Assembly: GCF_021646545.1 (NCBI RefSeq)
Contig: NZ_JAKIRP010000002.1
Location: 248,001-312,000, forward strand
Direction: 5' to 3'
DNA: 64,000 nucleotides
Source: Chitinophaga filiformis
GTDB taxonomy: Bacteria; Bacteroidota; Bacteroidia; Chitinophagales; Chitinophagaceae
The stretch's first letter is position 1. Each line of letters begins with the position of its first letter. Of this stretch, positions 22,573-29,797 are shown piece after piece. The notes under the pieces are model-generated. The model saw only the letters and a list, made by a program, of their open reading frames with translations. It was not told where the DNA came from and made no database searches. Both the position numbers and the translations under genes were made by a program.

Positions 22573-23211
22573 TTATATAGCTATTCCATGTGATCCCTGG
22601 TGACTTGCTTCATACACGGCAGACAGCAGATCCCTTCTTTCCAGCGATTTTTCCAGCCACAGGTCTACTGCACTGTAAACGATCTTCAGTGATGGCGTCA
22701 GTACATAAATGCCCGGCGTTGGTACATCTTCATTCACACCGGATATTCTGTCCCAGATAGGGTCGGTAGCAGAATAAAGACCCGCTTTGCCGGCAATCAG
22801 GTTGTGCTGATCCCAGATGCTGGCGAATGGCAGCTGTAATGCTGACGTGGCCTCGTCGAAATGTTGCTTTTCGTCAGTAGTTACCAGCAGCAGCTGACCG
22901 CCCATTACACGGATATCTGCGTAAATATCCTTCAGTTCTTTCAGCAGCCTGTTTCCATAACCATTCCAGTGGATGGAGTGGAAAGCGAGTACCAGCGGAC
23001 GGTCTATTACCTGTGTGATAGATTGTGGGCCCTGTACAGACTTCAAGATATCTGAAGTAGCAATAATATTTTTCTTATTTATATGGAATGCAGGTAATGT
23101 ATCTCCTGCATGTAAAGGGCTGATCGGGGTCCTGGTCTTATAGGCTTTTTTCACATTTTCAATCTCAAATTCAGGAAAAAGATCTGCGTATCTGTTGAAG
23201 TTGTTAGACAT
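22573..23211 (-). CDS. Peroxiredoxin-like (AhpC/TSA) protein lacking cysteine
   Basis: The 212-residue protein has the thioredoxin-like layout of AhpC/TSA redox proteins: LHAGDTLPAFHINKKN at the start, the strand LVLAFHSIHWNGYGNRLLKE where the active-site loop should be, LLLVTTDEKQHFDEATSAL, and TPGIYVLTPSLKIVYSAVDLWLEKSLERRD near the end. The usual peroxidatic cysteine position is occupied by HWNGYG and the whole protein contains no cysteine. It therefore cannot work as a normal peroxiredoxin and may be a binding or regulatory relative. It lies downstream of a mini-ORF with three Cys codons and a palindromic operator-like site, so sulfur or redox control of expression is likely. Confidence 0.7.
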   Translation of the reverse strand: MSNNFNRYADLFPEFEIENVKKAYKTRTPISPLHAGDTLPAFHINKKNIIATSDILKSVQGPQSITQVIDRPLVLAFHSIHWNGYGNRLLKELKDIYADIRVMGGQLLLVTTDEKQHFDEATSALQLPFASIWDQHNLIAGKAGLYSATDPIWDRISGVNEDVPTPGIYVLTPSLKIVYSAVDLWLEKSLERRDLLSAVYEASHQGSHGIAI

Positions 23212-23279
23212 AAAATAAATTTAAGGGATGGTTGGTAAACAGTGTTTAAATAAATGGTTGTAATGATTTTTATGAAACG

Positions 23280-23303
23280 GTTGCCGGCGGGCGATCCGTG
23301 GCA
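23280..23303 (-). promoter_or_regulatory. Hairpin downstream of the leader peptide
   Basis: On the minus strand TTGCC / GGCAA with an inner CGG / CCG stem forms a short GC-rich hairpin just after the mini-ORF stop. It could be one arm of an attenuation switch; no T-run follows, so termination by it alone is unlikely. Confidence 0.4.
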
Positions 23304-23311
23304 ATGAGGTA

Positions 23312-23380
23312 TCAGCTACAACAACAGACAGCAGCGGTCTTTCTGTTTTTAAACTGCGTTAATACTTTTAACTGAGGCAT
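23312..23380 (-). CDS. Putative leader peptide ending in Cys-Cys-Cys-Ser
   Basis: A 22-codon ORF runs from the ATG at 23380 to a TGA at 23312. It begins MPQLKVL, has a basic middle (FKNRK) and ends TAAVCCCS, with three consecutive TGT codons directly before the last sense codon. It lies about 33 nt downstream of the expected transcription start and 100 nt upstream of the peroxiredoxin-like gene. Known cysteine-responsive attenuators in mycobacteria use polycysteine leader ORFs of this kind. That this ORF is translated and senses Cys-tRNA is inference. Confidence 0.5.
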   Translation of the reverse strand: MPQLKVLTQFKNRKTAAVCCCS

Positions 23381-23419
23381 GTGAACTTGTGTTTTATGTG
23401 ATTGCCTGTATTGACAAAG

Positions 23420-23427
23420 CAAATATA
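23420..23427 (-). promoter_or_regulatory. -7 promoter element of the leader/peroxiredoxin-like unit
   Basis: The minus strand reads TATATTTG, a full match to TAnnTTTG. The -33 site would fall inside the neighbouring palindrome, so a protein bound there would block transcription. Confidence 0.6.
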
Positions 23428-23440
23428 GGAAGAATTTCTT

Positions 23441-23467
23441 AATACCCTACAAGTTTTGTAGGGTATT
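23441..23467. promoter_or_regulatory. Perfect palindrome overlapping the -33 region (operator candidate)
   Basis: AATACCCTACAA (23441-23452) and TTGTAGGGTATT (23456-23467) form a perfect 12-bp inverted repeat around a 3-bp centre. The position over the -33 region of the minus-strand promoter and the ATAC...GTAT dyad resemble operators of Rrf2-family (CymR/IscR-like) regulators. The regulator is not identified. Confidence 0.6.
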
Positions 23468-23518
23468 TATTAAGTGATTGATAATCATATACAATTCTTT
23501 AAAGAATTTGAAAAGTTT

Positions 23519-23557: not shown

Positions 23558-24415
23558 ATGAAAGGAATACAGTCAAATATCATCCCGGCCATCTGTTTGC
23601 TGGCTATCAGTATGGCAGGATGTAACAGTAATACTAGCAAACAGGATAAACAGGAGCAGGTAGCTGCTACCAATAATGCGACTATAATCAGGAATGATGA
23701 ACTATATCCCTTTATGCTGGCGGGCGTATACTTTATACATGGTTACGGCGGTCCCGAATCCACGTTCGACAGGTTGATCAAACCGGCAGTACAGGGTGAA
23801 CCGGGCACTGATAGTTTCTCTACATCCCTGCAGAATGCCTATACCCGATATTTTGTCTTCCCGTTCAAACCGCAGGATGATAAAGATGGTAAAGAAGCAA
23901 AAGCAACCCTGGCTGACTACTGGAACATCCACAACACCGCAGAACTGGAAAAATCACTGACCTGGTTGCTGGAAGAGGGGCATCAGGCGCAATACGCGCA
24001 ATATCGCAAGGTATTAGAAGAAAACGGTGGGGCAGGGGCAGACATCGCGGCTATCGACCTCGCAAAATATAAACTGTCAAAGACGGATATTCCGGGCATG
24101 GAGTTTATCAAAACCCATTACACAGAATTCAGTAATGGCGGTATCAAGGCATGGGATATCGCCCGTTATATTAACAACATCTGCGTGGCTTACCAGGCAG
24201 GATATCTTAACAGGGGAGAAGCCATGGTGTGGTTGAAGAAGGCGCCGCACGTGGTGCAATCGCAGTATAGCGACTGGAAAGCTTATTTCAACGATTTTCT
24301 GTTAGGGCGTCAGTTCTGGGGCGGTGCAGAGAGTGACAACGATCGTTTCAAAAGAGAAGTAGCAGGTATGCTGGAAGGGAAGTACAGCATCTATACTTAT
24401 ATGCCGGTGAAATAA
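23558..24415 (+). CDS. DUF1266-domain lipoprotein
   Basis: The 285-residue protein carries a lipoprotein signal (SMAGC, Cys22) followed by a Ser/Thr/Gln-rich linker. The C-terminal part, with AWDIARYINNICVAYQAGYL, NRGEAMVWLKKAPHVVQ and YFNDFLLGRQFWGG, matches the DUF1266 domain, found mostly in Gram-negative proteins of unknown role (for example E. coli YbeU/YbeR). It would sit in the periplasm on a membrane. It ends next to the T6SS cargo operon, from which it is separated by a bidirectional terminator, so a link to toxin immunity is possible but not shown. Confidence 0.7.
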   Translation: MKGIQSNIIPAICLLAISMAGCNSNTSKQDKQEQVAATNNATIIRNDELYPFMLAGVYFIHGYGGPESTFDRLIKPAVQGEPGTDSFSTSLQNAYTRYFVFPFKPQDDKDGKEAKATLADYWNIHNTAELEKSLTWLLEEGHQAQYAQYRKVLEENGGAGADIAAIDLAKYKLSKTDIPGMEFIKTHYTEFSNGGIKAWDIARYINNICVAYQAGYLNRGEAMVWLKKAPHVVQSQYSDWKAYFNDFLLGRQFWGGAESDNDRFKREVAGMLEGKYSIYTYMPVK

Positions 24416-25669: not shown

Positions 25670-28600
25670 TTAAGGACAAGGATGAGGCGCGTTGATATTT
25701 TGATGTTCCAACCCGGCCAGCGGGTATTTTACAGTAACAAGATGCTTGGTCTGGATCTTGTTCTTGGTCGTAATTTTAGTATACTTATATGTGATCGTCA
25801 TTTTATTGTCTACTGCAAAGTTATGCATCGCAGGATTACAAAACTCACATGGCGCTATTCCTGGTACCGGGTAGCCTTTTCCTGAGGGTAGCCTTATGAA
25901 TGATGGTTTCGATTCAATTTCCAATGTAGCACCATGCAATTTTTCCATATCGTCCTTAAATCGTTCCTGCAGCTGGCGTATCAGCTTTTGTTCAGCGTCT
26001 TCTAAACGGCCTTCTACTTTTTTTGCGCCACTGGATGCCCGTATGGTCTTTAATTGCTCCGGAGCCTGCCCTTTCAGCGTCAATACCGAATCTATTATGG
26101 TCAGACCAAGGACGTCTATCTGGGTGTTGGTATCCCTTACATAACTATAAAAAGTGGCATTGGTGCTGGCAAGTCGTATGGGGTCCTGGCTGATATAGAC
26201 GCCTTCTTCCGGTAAATAATACCTGAACCGGTTGTAATATAACTCCGTCTCTATATCATGGTACTGACCCTGATACCGGAAAGGTATGAAAGTGAGGTCG
26301 CCATTCCGCTTGCGCGGTTTGCCATAGATATCCAGCTCGCAGGCCCATACCAGCGTACCTTCTGCATCATATGCCTGACAAGGGGTGCCCAGATGATCAG
26401 TAATGATAGAATAGGCTTTACCGTCAATGATCTTCGCTGACGGGGCTCCAGCTCCTTCGAACACCCAGGTGATGAGTGATGCTGGTGGTACTGGCTCAGG
26501 TGGCTGTACCACATTGCCCATTTCATCCACTTCTGTCACAGGTCTTTGACTGGCTTCATATGTCCACTCATGCAGGGGAGCATGCTCATCCCAGATCCAG
26601 CGGGTGATCTGTTGCTTGTATATTTTGGCGGTCCTCCTACCTAAAGCATCATATTCGAAACAAACGGCGGTATTGTCAGGACGGATCACCTTTTTCAACA
26701 TGCCGTTGCCATACCATTCATACTGCCAGGTCTTCAGGTCAGCAGTGATCTTCCTGCTGAGATTACCTTCTTCATCATATTCGAACCTTCCCTGTGCAGA
26801 TGCTTTTAATTGTCCGCCGGCATTGTATTTCCGATCGTTCCGCTGTTCTGTGCGGAACAGATTACCAAGTTTATCCGGCAGCCTGAAGTCATATTGACCG
26901 TTCTCATACTGTGCCCAGGAGAGATTGCCAAATTCATCATGCCCGAACTTAGTCACTCCTTCGTCCAGTGCATTCACGATCTGCCGCAATCTGTCATTCG
27001 GGTCCCAGCGGTAATGTAAATTACGGGTGATCTCATCACCATGCCGTACAGTATGTGCTGATGGCATTCCCCCACTATCATAAGTCCATTTACTTTGGAT
27101 ATTGCCGGGAAGATAACGTGCTACTTCCAATCCCAGGTGATTGCACATGATCTCTGTCACCCACGGTGCCTTTGTGCCTTCATGGCTGGCCCTGATGCCT
27201 GTTACGGCACCTATCTTGTTGTGCGTGATTTCTATCAGTGCTCCCAATGAACTTTTAATACTATCTCTGCGACCATGTTTGTTATAGTTGCTCGTTACAG
27301 TATGTCCGTTTTGCTGCTCTTCTATCACACGCCCCAGATTGTCTCTTTTAAAGGTGACAATATTAAATTCATTGACGGCTTCAATCAGCAACCCGTTGCG
27401 ATCGTAGGTATAAGTTTCCCAGCTGCCGTCACTGTACTCGGCGCGTGTGATCTGGTGTCTGCTGTTATATTCAAAGACTGTTTGTCTGCCACCCGGGCGG
27501 TGCATGGTGATCAGATTGCCGGTAGCATCCATACTGTAGCGGCGTATAATACCATCAAAACTTCTATCCTCGATGATCTCTCCCCGTGCATTACGAATGA
27601 AACGGAAGCTGCTGCCATGTTCGTCAACAACTGTACTCAGCTGATCTTCTGTATCGTATACCAAATGCATCTTCACGCCATTTTCTTCCCGTAGTTTCAG
27701 CTTACCCAATGGTGTGTACTGGAACTTCACATCATTGTATTTATCCTTTGCCCGTATTACGTCGAGATAGGCGTTATATTGCAGTTGTACAACATTCCCA
27801 TCCGGGACATGCACCTCTGTTGCCCGCCCTAATTTATCATAACGGAAGGTTTGTTTTTGCTGCTGAGGATTGGTGGCACTCAGGCATTGTCCCCAGTTGT
27901 CATATTCCCAGCTGGCAATGCCTCCATCGGGAAGTTTAAGTGCAGCAAGATTATAGTCGTCATCATAGCTGAAAATAGTCTCGCCTGCATGATATTCCGC
28001 TATACTGCCCAGCAGGTTTTTTTCATTATAGGAGAATAGTTGTAATGTGCCATTGGCGTCACTACGACTATGCAGCAGCCCATTCTCATAATAGACATAG
28101 GAAGTATTGTTGCCCTGTGCATCACTGGCCACCAATAAATTACCTGTTTCATCATAAGTGTAATTTAGCTGGCTTCCATCCGGGTATACCACTGATGTGC
28201 AGTTCCCCATTTCATCATAGACATAACCGGTCATGTTCCCATCTTCATCGATCTGCCTGTAGATCTCAAAATCCGGCGTGTATTCCGTGAAGGTGGAATA
28301 TCCCAGCGGATCTTTGATCTGGTATACAACAAAGTCCGGTGTGTAATAATACGTAGTGGTTTGCCCCAGGGAATTGGTAACAAGGTTATATCCTTCTTTC
28401 GGATGATAAGCGATATAACCTTCCAGTAATCCGCCATCACCCCAGGTATGCACGCAGCGCCCCTGTTTATCATATTCCCAGTAAAAAGACTGGCCATTCC
28501 GATCCGTCTTTTTGATCATCAGGTGATCTCGATATGTCATTGATGTGGTTTGCTCCAGTGCATCAGTGATGCCGGTAAGATCTCCCTGATCGTTATAGGT

Positions 28601-29797
28601 ATAACTGATCAGCGGTCTTTCCTCGCCACGGTGACGTGCTGTGACGCCGGTAATACGCCCTGCACTGTCACTGCTTATATGCAGGTGTCTGCCCACACTG
28701 TCTATGACACGCACGATCGCTCCACGGCTGTTATAGTGGAAGCTGATCATGAACTGCGCTTTATCATGAATAGTGGAGAGATGATACTGAGTAGCCCCGT
28801 TGTATGTTTTACGGAAGGTATAGAACAAGCCATTGTCATGGTTGTACAACTGGTATTCATCCATATCGGTCCGTTTCAGCGTCATTTTCTCATGCCGGTT
28901 ATAGTCGCTGTCACCGCTGGCTGGCAAAGCCTCAAACACCGCAGTACGTCCGTCTCCCAGTAATACCACTACAGCGCCGTCACTGATAAACTCTTCGATG
29001 CGCATATCATAGCAAAGATGTGTACCATGACCCAGCGCGCCCTCAAATGAGCTGTCACTGTTCCATGATCGTTCCCACCTCAGCGGAATAGGACCGGGCA
29101 GCTCAAAGTCAAGACCATCATAGATCATGATACCCTGTACCAGGTCCACTGGCTCGAAGCCTTTTTTACAGAGTGTTTTACTCAGTTTATTACTGCCGAT
29201 CTTGCCTTTCAGTGCATGATTGAATTTGGTTAAACCTTTCCTCCCCATCTTACCCAGGCCTTTCATCAATGCACCAAATCCGAAAGACATCACAAGGTTC
29301 AGCAATACACCGGCCCAGTCAGGCACATAGGGACCACCTACCATCACCGGCTTTCCAAATGACAGCGGAATAGAGAATGAGGTAGGCAGATACATACTGG
29401 GGATAGGTTTCAGCTTCTTGCCCGGTTGCAGCGAGAGCGGAATACCAATATCGTTACAGGTCATCAGCATATGACCTGTGGGGCTTAACAACCTGCCTTC
29501 GGCTTTCACGGTCTTACTGCCGAAGAAGTTGACAGAATCATGGCCTATCATGGGCGCCAGCAGCCAGGGACCTCCCATGGGGAAGTGAAAGAGGATGATG
29601 ATGATACCGCTTGTATCGCTTACTCCTCTGGGTACGTGGTTAACCTTGGTGCTGGCGCCCATGAATGGAATATAATCCATGGGGTCCAGTACAAAACCAA
29701 TGTAAGGATGGGGCAGGGGAATGGGGAATCCCAGCAGGATAACAATATGTATGTCGAGCCCTATAACGGGAATGAAATGTTTATTGCTGACCAGCAT
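25670..29797 (-). CDS. Rhs-repeat T6SS effector with PAAR-like N-terminus and deaminase-like tip
   Basis: The 1375-residue protein has three parts. Residues about 1-230 form a hydrophobic PAAR-like region (GSKTVKAEGRLLSPTGHML, DIGIPL) that would sit on the VgrG tip. A DUF6531-type segment (DLVQGIMIYDGLDFELPGP) leads into some 900 residues of Rhs/YD repeats (YDELGN/YDxxGR-like), which build a cocoon. The Rhs core ends with DPIRLASTNATFYSYVRDTN and the self-cleavage-type motif DVLGL (1228-1232). The last 143 residues are the toxin. They hold DAEQKLIRQL (Asp1267-Glu1269) and APCEFCNPAMHNFA (Cys1317, Cys1320), which read as the zinc motifs of cytidine-deaminase-fold toxins with Asp in place of the usual His. 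The start lies 5 bp after the adaptor gene. Confidence 0.88.
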   Translation of the reverse strand: MLVSNKHFIPVIGLDIHIVILLGFPIPLPHPYIGFVLDPMDYIPFMGASTKVNHVPRGVSDTSGIIIILFHFPMGGPWLLAPMIGHDSVNFFGSKTVKAEGRLLSPTGHMLMTCNDIGIPLSLQPGKKLKPIPSMYLPTSFSIPLSFGKPVMVGGPYVPDWAGVLLNLVMSFGFGALMKGLGKMGRKGLTKFNHALKGKIGSNKLSKTLCKKGFEPVDLVQGIMIYDGLDFELPGPIPLRWERSWNSDSSFEGALGHGTHLCYDMRIEEFISDGAVVVLLGDGRTAVFEALPASGDSDYNRHEKMTLKRTDMDEYQLYNHDNGLFYTFRKTYNGATQYHLSTIHDKAQFMISFHYNSRGAIVRVIDSVGRHLHISSDSAGRITGVTARHRGEERPLISYTYNDQGDLTGITDALEQTTSMTYRDHLMIKKTDRNGQSFYWEYDKQGRCVHTWGDGGLLEGYIAYHPKEGYNLVTNSLGQTTTYYYTPDFVVYQIKDPLGYSTFTEYTPDFEIYRQIDEDGNMTGYVYDEMGNCTSVVYPDGSQLNYTYDETGNLLVASDAQGNNTSYVYYENGLLHSRSDANGTLQLFSYNEKNLLGSIAEYHAGETIFSYDDDYNLAALKLPDGGIASWEYDNWGQCLSATNPQQQKQTFRYDKLGRATEVHVPDGNVVQLQYNAYLDVIRAKDKYNDVKFQYTPLGKLKLREENGVKMHLVYDTEDQLSTVVDEHGSSFRFIRNARGEIIEDRSFDGIIRRYSMDATGNLITMHRPGGRQTVFEYNSRHQITRAEYSDGSWETYTYDRNGLLIEAVNEFNIVTFKRDNLGRVIEEQQNGHTVTSNYNKHGRRDSIKSSLGALIEITHNKIGAVTGIRASHEGTKAPWVTEIMCNHLGLEVARYLPGNIQSKWTYDSGGMPSAHTVRHGDEITRNLHYRWDPNDRLRQIVNALDEGVTKFGHDEFGNLSWAQYENGQYDFRLPDKLGNLFRTEQRNDRKYNAGGQLKASAQGRFEYDEEGNLSRKITADLKTWQYEWYGNGMLKKVIRPDNTAVCFEYDALGRRTAKIYKQQITRWIWDEHAPLHEWTYEASQRPVTEVDEMGNVVQPPEPVPPASLITWVFEGAGAPSAKIIDGKAYSIITDHLGTPCQAYDAEGTLVWACELDIYGKPRKRNGDLTFIPFRYQGQYHDIETELYYNRFRYYLPEEGVYISQDPIRLASTNATFYSYVRDTNTQIDVLGLTIIDSVLTLKGQAPEQLKTIRASSGAKKVEGRLEDAEQKLIRQLQERFKDDMEKLHGATLEIESKPSFIRLPSGKGYPVPGIAPCEFCNPAMHNFAVDNKMTITYKYTKITTKNKIQTKHLVTVKYPLAGLEHQNINAPHPCP

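Follow-up and report, generated by a model that had tools for sequence, protein, structure and literature searches.

A putative cysteine-sensing leader ORF upstream of a cysteine-free peroxiredoxin-fold gene in Chitinophaga, and Cys-rich leaders at sulfur genes across the class

Introduction

In the genome of Chitinophaga filiformis, a minus-strand ORF of 22 codons carries three TGT codons just before its end and lies upstream of a gene for a peroxiredoxin-fold protein. Is this ORF a cysteine-sensing leader, and do similar leaders occur elsewhere? The initial annotation proposed such a leader, combined with a sulfur-type regulator, and its checks included two on sequence: conservation of the ORF and its Cys run in relatives, and Cys-rich short ORFs upstream of other sulfur genes. 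The DNA analyzed—the window—is the whole stretch of 64,000 nucleotides, and coordinates below are those of the window unless a locus is named. Polycysteine attenuators encoded by leaderless sORFs were reportedly described in mycobacteria by Canestrari et al. in 2020.

The mycobacterial polycysteine leader work is cited in passages of PMC13236596 and PMC9094748, and cys/cbs leaders with Cys codons in Actinobacteria are mentioned in PMC1262725. In the Rhodobacterales, uORFC-8-2 precedes cysS and has two Cys codons and a terminator, and tRNA-Cys sensing was inferred for it (from the account in PMC8632094). Two sources concern the same phylum as the present locus: PMC9723704 mentions 'strong clues' of attenuation at operons for amino-acid biosynthesis in Flavobacterium psychrophilum, and PMC7366714 mentions sORFs in long 5' UTRs of Bacteroides thetaiotaomicron, but their passages on these subjects name no cysteine leader or sulfur gene. 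The relevant passages of PMC2965389 hold nothing on Bacteroidota. The collection of papers that we searched contains no account of Cys leaders at sulfur genes of the Bacteroidota, in agreement with the initial annotation, which knew of none in this phylum. A search of the window and 11 loci against Rfam at gathering thresholds returned no match.

Results

Organization of the locus

The elements are arranged on the minus strand in the order palindrome (23467-23441), -7 element (23427-23420), ATG (23380), 22-codon ORF, C-rich spacer, and gene (23211-22573). The ORF, 23380-23312, encodes MPQLKVLTQFKNRKTAAVCCCS; it has an ATG start, 22 sense codons and a TGA stop, and ends GTC TGT TGT TGT AGC TGA, so that its final sense codons are TGT TGT TGT AGC, just as initially described. 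The three TGT codons (23318-23326, minus strand) form the predicted stall site, so that this gene has the small upstream ORF with repeated codons for the amino acid to be sensed that an attenuator calls for.

The full -7 element claimed upstream of the ORF is present as TATATTTG. The palindrome, AATACCCTACAA-AAC-TTGTAGGGTATT, has 12-nt arms of 100% complementarity and a 3-nt centre, and is a predicted site for an Rrf2/CymR-like repressor. It covers TTG at 23452-23450 (minus strand), which we take to be the -33 element after the Bacteroidota promoter type, so the description of a perfect operator-like palindrome over the -33 site was accurate. A palindrome scan allowing up to 3 mismatches gave one match in the window and 0 in shuffles, and genome-wide the palindrome matches only the window site and its copy on contig C23. 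A small hairpin, AGGCA:TGCCT, spans the leader start, with its 5' arm at 23403-23407 and its 3' arm, which overlaps the leader ATG, at 23375-23379 (minus strand).

The copy on contig C23 (G000:C23) belongs to an identical copy of the region, in reverse order, within the same assembly; paired operator matches point to a duplication of several hundred kb, which accords with a contamination figure of 6.22%, and the copy is probably an assembly duplicate. The ORF is not an artefact of the duplicated contig, as it is kept in other species. A DUF1266 lipoprotein-like gene (23558-24415, plus strand) diverges from the peroxiredoxin-fold gene, and the operator, lying between the two, might control both. 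Elsewhere in the window, a gene at 25670-29797 (minus strand) encodes a 1375-aa RHS-repeat protein matching PF05593, PF20148 and PF03527.

Conservation of the leader and operator

Homologues of the peroxiredoxin-fold gene (E up to 1e-10) are found in 57 of 59 other genomes of the genus and in 0 of 39 genomes of the order. Upstream regions were compared at 60 loci, a set that leaves out 8 of the 57 same-genus genomes with a homologue. Because six pairs (L006/L035, L007/L036, L008/L038, L012/L040, L020/L041 and L021/L042) are the same places twice, the set amounts to 54 distinct loci—17 close (>60% identity) and 37 distant (<50%). A leader was scored as an ORF with three Cys within seven residues.

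An operator-like site lies upstream of all 60 loci, in most of them about 35 nt before the -7 element; the expression used is loose, with an estimated chance occurrence of roughly 2% per locus. The -7 element reads TATATTTG or TATCTTTG in 17/17 distinct close loci, and both arms of the AGGCA:TGCCT hairpin are kept in 15/17, with a two-sided change in L010. The first of the named checks, conservation in relatives, turned out favorably: the Cys run is present at 20 of the 21 loci above 60% identity (16/17 distinct), the sole exception being L037, whose leader ends CCS with only two Cys. No Cys-run leader was found at the 39 loci below 50% identity, all of which have the operator-like site. The proposed combination of operator and leader holds at close loci, whereas distant homologues share only the operator; control without a leader is possible, and the operator seems to be the older of the two, to which the leader was added.

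The leader peptides of the close loci differ (MYKLTSYNVCCC, MPNVVKPTITEYTMTVAIAVCCCCN, MPNRTTSEKFNGQFCSTPPNACCCMCM), ranging from 12 to 32 residues, with length changes in frame and TGT and TGC interchanged. Since peptide and length vary while the Cys run persists, it is the Cys run and not the peptide that is conserved. Conservation is higher in the stretch that follows the leader, CGTTTCNTAAAAATC...ACAACCATT, than in the leader itself. A terminal CCC was counted if it fell among the final 7 codons of an ORF that starts with ATG and has at least 8 codons. Dinucleotide shuffling of the 17 close loci produced one in 0.06% of 34,000 trials, shuffling of the window's own leader region in 0/2,000, and none of the 17 opposite strands has one; on the strength of the shuffles we rejected a chance ORF.

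The downstream gene

The gene at 22573-23211 (minus strand) encodes a 212-aa protein that matches AhpC/TSA (PF00578) at 35.9 bits against a cut-off of 26. It contains no cysteine, and the peroxidatic cysteine is missing: the active place reads FHSIHWNGY, where two Spirosomataceae relatives have FYCPCWGRY and so retain CPC. Cysteine is absent from 55 of 58 loci outside the Spirosomataceae, with one Cys each in L023, L029 and L046. The earlier label 'peroxiredoxin-like' is thus apt for the fold and probably not for the chemistry, the product being unlikely to be a Cys peroxidase. A Cys-free protein produced under cysteine shortage would fit sulfur sparing.

Operators and leaders elsewhere in Chitinophaga

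Scanning three genomes for the operator with one mismatch gave 132 places, of which about 40 regions—palindromic, with A+T-rich centres—were picked by eye. Matches numbered 45, 37 and 50 against 38, 32 and 33 for a reversed pattern, and because the reversed pattern matches nearly as often, most single matches are chance and many operator assignments depend on reading by eye. With that proviso, operator-like sites precede genes for O-acetylhomoserine sulfhydrylase (L109), sulfatase (L100, L177), sulfite-reductase-like proteins (L175, L183, L195), PhyH-type dioxygenase (L095, L191), a redoxin-domain protein (L108), PAPS reductase (L254), and several SusC-type receptors (L110 and L111 named by eye).

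The second check, Cys-rich short ORFs before other sulfur genes, also bore out the proposal, both in Chitinophaga and across the class. Near operator-like sites in Chitinophaga, Cys-rich leaders precede sulfite-reductase-like, dioxygenase and TonB-receptor genes. Those seen are MYNFLRSSGCMPCCCS (L108), MQSSTIHFFQRKDGTWCCFVCCCQ (L111), MGNMGIAKSVMCAGSCCRPTAQEAC (L183) and MN[A/T]SLRCC (L102 and L180), together with leaders ending SISCYCSSS (L098), CCTGMHCSSYMCM (L101 and its orthologue L176), CNAWSAVCGCSAAIYC (L110), SKECPYCCC (L095 and L191), NQGCCC (L097), QHSCCCCTYMAA (L184) and LCYGCHCSIVMVAGEA (L175 and L195). The sulfite-reductase-like gene of the window's own genome (L195) has a leader, a 10-pair hairpin and an antiterminator. 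No Cys-rich leader was seen at the sulfatase, cytochrome c (L103, L181) and sterol-desaturase-like (L104, L182) loci, nor at L096/L190, L105, L113 and L114. A search of one genome for strings of a Cys run plus stop gave 112 and 111 matches against 21 and 26 for reversed patterns; we judged these matches to be dominated by Leu-codon repeats inside genes.

At L097 and L192 an ORF of about 63 codons (MSIAEHVQSLQQHLAQYGLYPVPADVDREG...) follows the operator and a CCC leader; it is perhaps a small protein of sulfur starvation.

Sulfite-reductase-like genes across the class

The protein of L183 was used as a query for a wider search. It has NIR_SIR domains and lies below every NCBIfam cut-off, so its assignment as a sulfite rather than a nitrite reductase rests on neighbors; those of the gene in L256 are genes for PAPS reductase and a CysN-like GTPase. 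The query matched 11/60 genomes at the level of the order and 38/149 at that of the class, both evenly drawn samples. Class loci were taken from 30 of 39 rows of matches, 8 of the other 9 were examined later, and G251:C72 was left out. A leader was defined as an ORF of up to 65 codons that lies no more than 420 nt from the gene and has three Cys in a span of seven residues; only intrinsic terminators at most 120 nt past the leader stop were counted.

A leader is present at 22 of 39 loci, bearing 15 family labels, and 19 of the 39 have both leader and terminator; at 17 no leader as defined was found. The definition was set after the first 39 loci had been read, so that only the 8 later loci are held out, and 6 of these 8 have leader and terminator. 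Where no same-strand ORF ends within 130 nt (31 loci), 21 have a leader and 18 have both. The controls were 268 genes of at least 200 codons, drawn from the window and from 20 stretches of 20 kb each; leaders occur at 10 of them, terminators at 32, and the two in order at none. Fisher values against these controls are 8e-16 for the leader and 8e-20 for leader plus terminator, although both overstate independence since related species are counted separately. Examples of these leaders are MKINNNSSNFIKSTICCCCCCCCCCMLFKFLKTMI and MNDITFKAGTIRIAMMCCCCCMMNDSSGSDL.

Complementarity between an antiterminator strand and the 5' arm of the terminator was assessed in 26 units. The mean pairing energy is -13.65 kcal/mol, compared with -7.26 for shuffles that preserve single-base but not dinucleotide composition, and 0/200 shuffle sets are as low; z is negative in 25 of the 26 units and positive in L224. 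The antiterminator strand begins 6-16 nt past the Cys run, and five further leaders have antiterminator z values from -2.17 to -3.15. Between L175 and L183, changes in the antiterminator and in the hairpin match each other. Leader and terminator, with the antiterminator behind the regulatory codons, are thus the components expected of an attenuator, and from these we predict that the sulfite-reductase-like genes are controlled by transcription attenuation.

Seven of the 19 (L197, L199, L200, L208, L214, L218 and L226) have two leader-terminator units in series, and L265 and L271 look like tandem loci as well. In eight regions reaching further upstream of genes with no leader, no leader-terminator unit was found. 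A CCCC leader, MKTRILNTFLLSAKFSVSGDWMHGCCCCKY (L263:4631-4723, plus strand), precedes a homoserine dehydrogenase gene, with no terminator by the strict filter.

Methionine is common near the Cys runs: of the 235 residues no more than three positions away from a Cys, 58 are Met, versus 20 of 420 elsewhere (start excluded). The 32 leaders counted were entered by hand, some fall below the strict definition and several were trimmed by hand to an internal ATG; this choice of starts and the relatedness of the species weaken the enrichment. Even so, it suggests that Cys and Met may both be sensed by the leaders.

A CymR-like regulator

CymR is the cysteine metabolism repressor and belongs to the Rrf2 family. 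Rrf2-family genes adjoin the sulfite-reductase-like gene in L196 and L210 and a distant homologue in L043, and the upstream regions of L256, L257, L258 and L260 contain an Rrf2-like gene. The window's own genome has two Rrf2 genes, of which that in L254 is upstream of the PAPS reductase gene, with an operator-like site between them. Rrf2 genes thus stand beside sulfur genes in L196, L210, L043, L254 and L256. Their proteins are nearest the CymR model and below its cut-off (89.8 bits against 195 for L196). This gene neighborhood supports a sulfur-type regulator as the second layer of control that the initial annotation had suggested, and such a protein is predicted to bind the operator. As in the CymR regulon, an Rrf2-family gene lies beside sulfur genes that are preceded by a palindromic operator; here, however, the proteins fall below the CymR cut-off and the operators are combined with leader ORFs.

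The output step at the window

At the window the output part is less plain than the sensing part. The GC hairpin reported after the stop, TTGCC...GGCAA (23304-23281, minus strand), is present and is a modest one, weaker than claimed, with no U-tract and absent in part of the clade. The whole leader region does not fold more stably than shuffles (z -0.85), 39/200 of which are as good. In a terminator scan of the window's minus strand, no intrinsic terminator turned up in the interval from leader to gene, so that any output step at this gene is a prediction.

Two features could serve. The first is a candidate helix in which the Cys codons and stop (GUUGUAGCUGAU, 23311-23322, minus strand) pair as 5' strand with a conserved element about 43 nt past the stop (AUCAUUACAAC, 23257-23267, minus strand). 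It is the best duplex in 8 of the 17 close loci and by eye compatible with the sequence in four more, and at least five lack it; L012 has an A-U to U-A change. Compared with shuffles locus by locus over the 17 loci, its energies are not significant singly. The second is the spacer itself (23212-23311, minus strand), with 29 C and 9 G, and with 391 C against 117 G over the 17 loci, a composition that would suit Rho.

These features bear on the question of whether control at the window is instead translational, in which case a stalled ribosome would free either the start of the gene or the conserved element and transcription would not end early. The missing terminator and the candidate helix, with its change in L012, speak for this, and passages of PMC1262725 present the Cys leaders of mycobacteria as attenuators whose output is uncertain; but the helix is absent in part of the clade and not significant singly, and sulfite-reductase-like leaders of the class use terminators. 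We regard translational control as possible though not the likelier course. The leader at the window is likely, its sensing part resembling the other leaders, and Rho-dependent attenuation is slightly ahead of translational control as the output that is not visible in the sequence.

Discussion

We favor, with a probability of about 0.8, the reading that the 22-codon ORF is a cysteine-sensing leader at which a shortage of Cys-tRNA leads to stalling and to expression of the Cys-free gene, with read-out and operator as proposed here. When Cys-tRNA is low, a ribosome translating the leader would stall on UGU UGU UGU, and the peroxiredoxin-fold gene would be expressed; with ample cysteine it would run on to the stop codon and be released, leaving the gene attenuated. 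As read-out at the window we predict termination by Rho within the C-rich, G-poor spacer, and the helix between the Cys codons and 23267-23257 may govern that step. As a second layer, a CymR-like Rrf2 repressor is predicted to bind the operator over the -33 site.

The Cys run might instead serve a function of the peptide, the short ORFs encoding a Cys-rich peptide or a nascent-chain sensor of metals or oxidants. Cys runs can bind metals, the gene downstream encodes a redoxin-fold protein (as does that of L108), and a nascent-protein copper sensor has been reported (PMC9973294). We consider such a function improbable, as apart from its Cys run the peptide is not conserved, its length ranging from 12 to 32 residues, and conservation is best at sulfur-assimilation genes, where terminator and antiterminator lie so that the position of a ribosome could control them. 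That the ORF is not translated at all, and that the Cys run is a by-product of a conserved RNA or DNA element, is very unlikely despite the better conservation of the stretch after the leader, because frame and stop survive in-frame length changes and TGT/TGC swaps, and because other genes, too, have Cys leaders, unrelated in sequence.

The cysteine-sensing leader that we favor resembles, in the features given by the sources cited above, the mycobacterial and actinobacterial Cys leaders, which also have a Cys run near the stop of a short leader before sulfur genes; the mycobacterial polycysteine sORFs, like the window, have no terminator hairpin. They belong to another phylum, whereas here there is an Rrf2-type operator, and relatives have terminators, tandem units and Met beside Cys. 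Leaderless initiation may be another difference: the -7 element ends at 23420 and the ATG at 23380 lies about 30 nt past the predicted start site, which speaks against a leaderless ORF. As described in PMC8632094, the alphaproteobacterial uORFC-8-2 has one target, cysS, and two Cys, compared with many sulfur-supply targets and runs of up to ten Cys here.

The idea of a Cys leader is thus supported by conservation of the Cys run and by the leaders at other operator-site and sulfite-reductase-like genes, and it extends far beyond this gene. For the whole class, we give even odds to a broader picture in which sulfur economy is governed by leaders whose Cys runs, with Met interspersed, respond to a lack of either amino acid, often as tandem attenuators, atop a CymR-like repressor. 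In this picture such leaders, first at sulfite reductase, were extended in Chitinophaga to genes for outer-membrane uptake and to a peroxiredoxin-fold protein whose lack of Cys keeps it affordable to a starved cell.

Leader ORFs of this kind are missed by standard annotation because they are short and dissimilar in sequence. Their presence would give the Bacteroidota, in which few leader-peptide switches have been described, a regulon-wide cysteine sensor, and it points to outer-membrane receptors and unknown genes as likely serving sulfur supply. The loci also constitute a natural series—with a terminator, with tandem units, and with no terminator—for experiments on how a single sensing run can be connected to several outputs, and they raise the testable question of whether Cys and Met are sensed in one leader.
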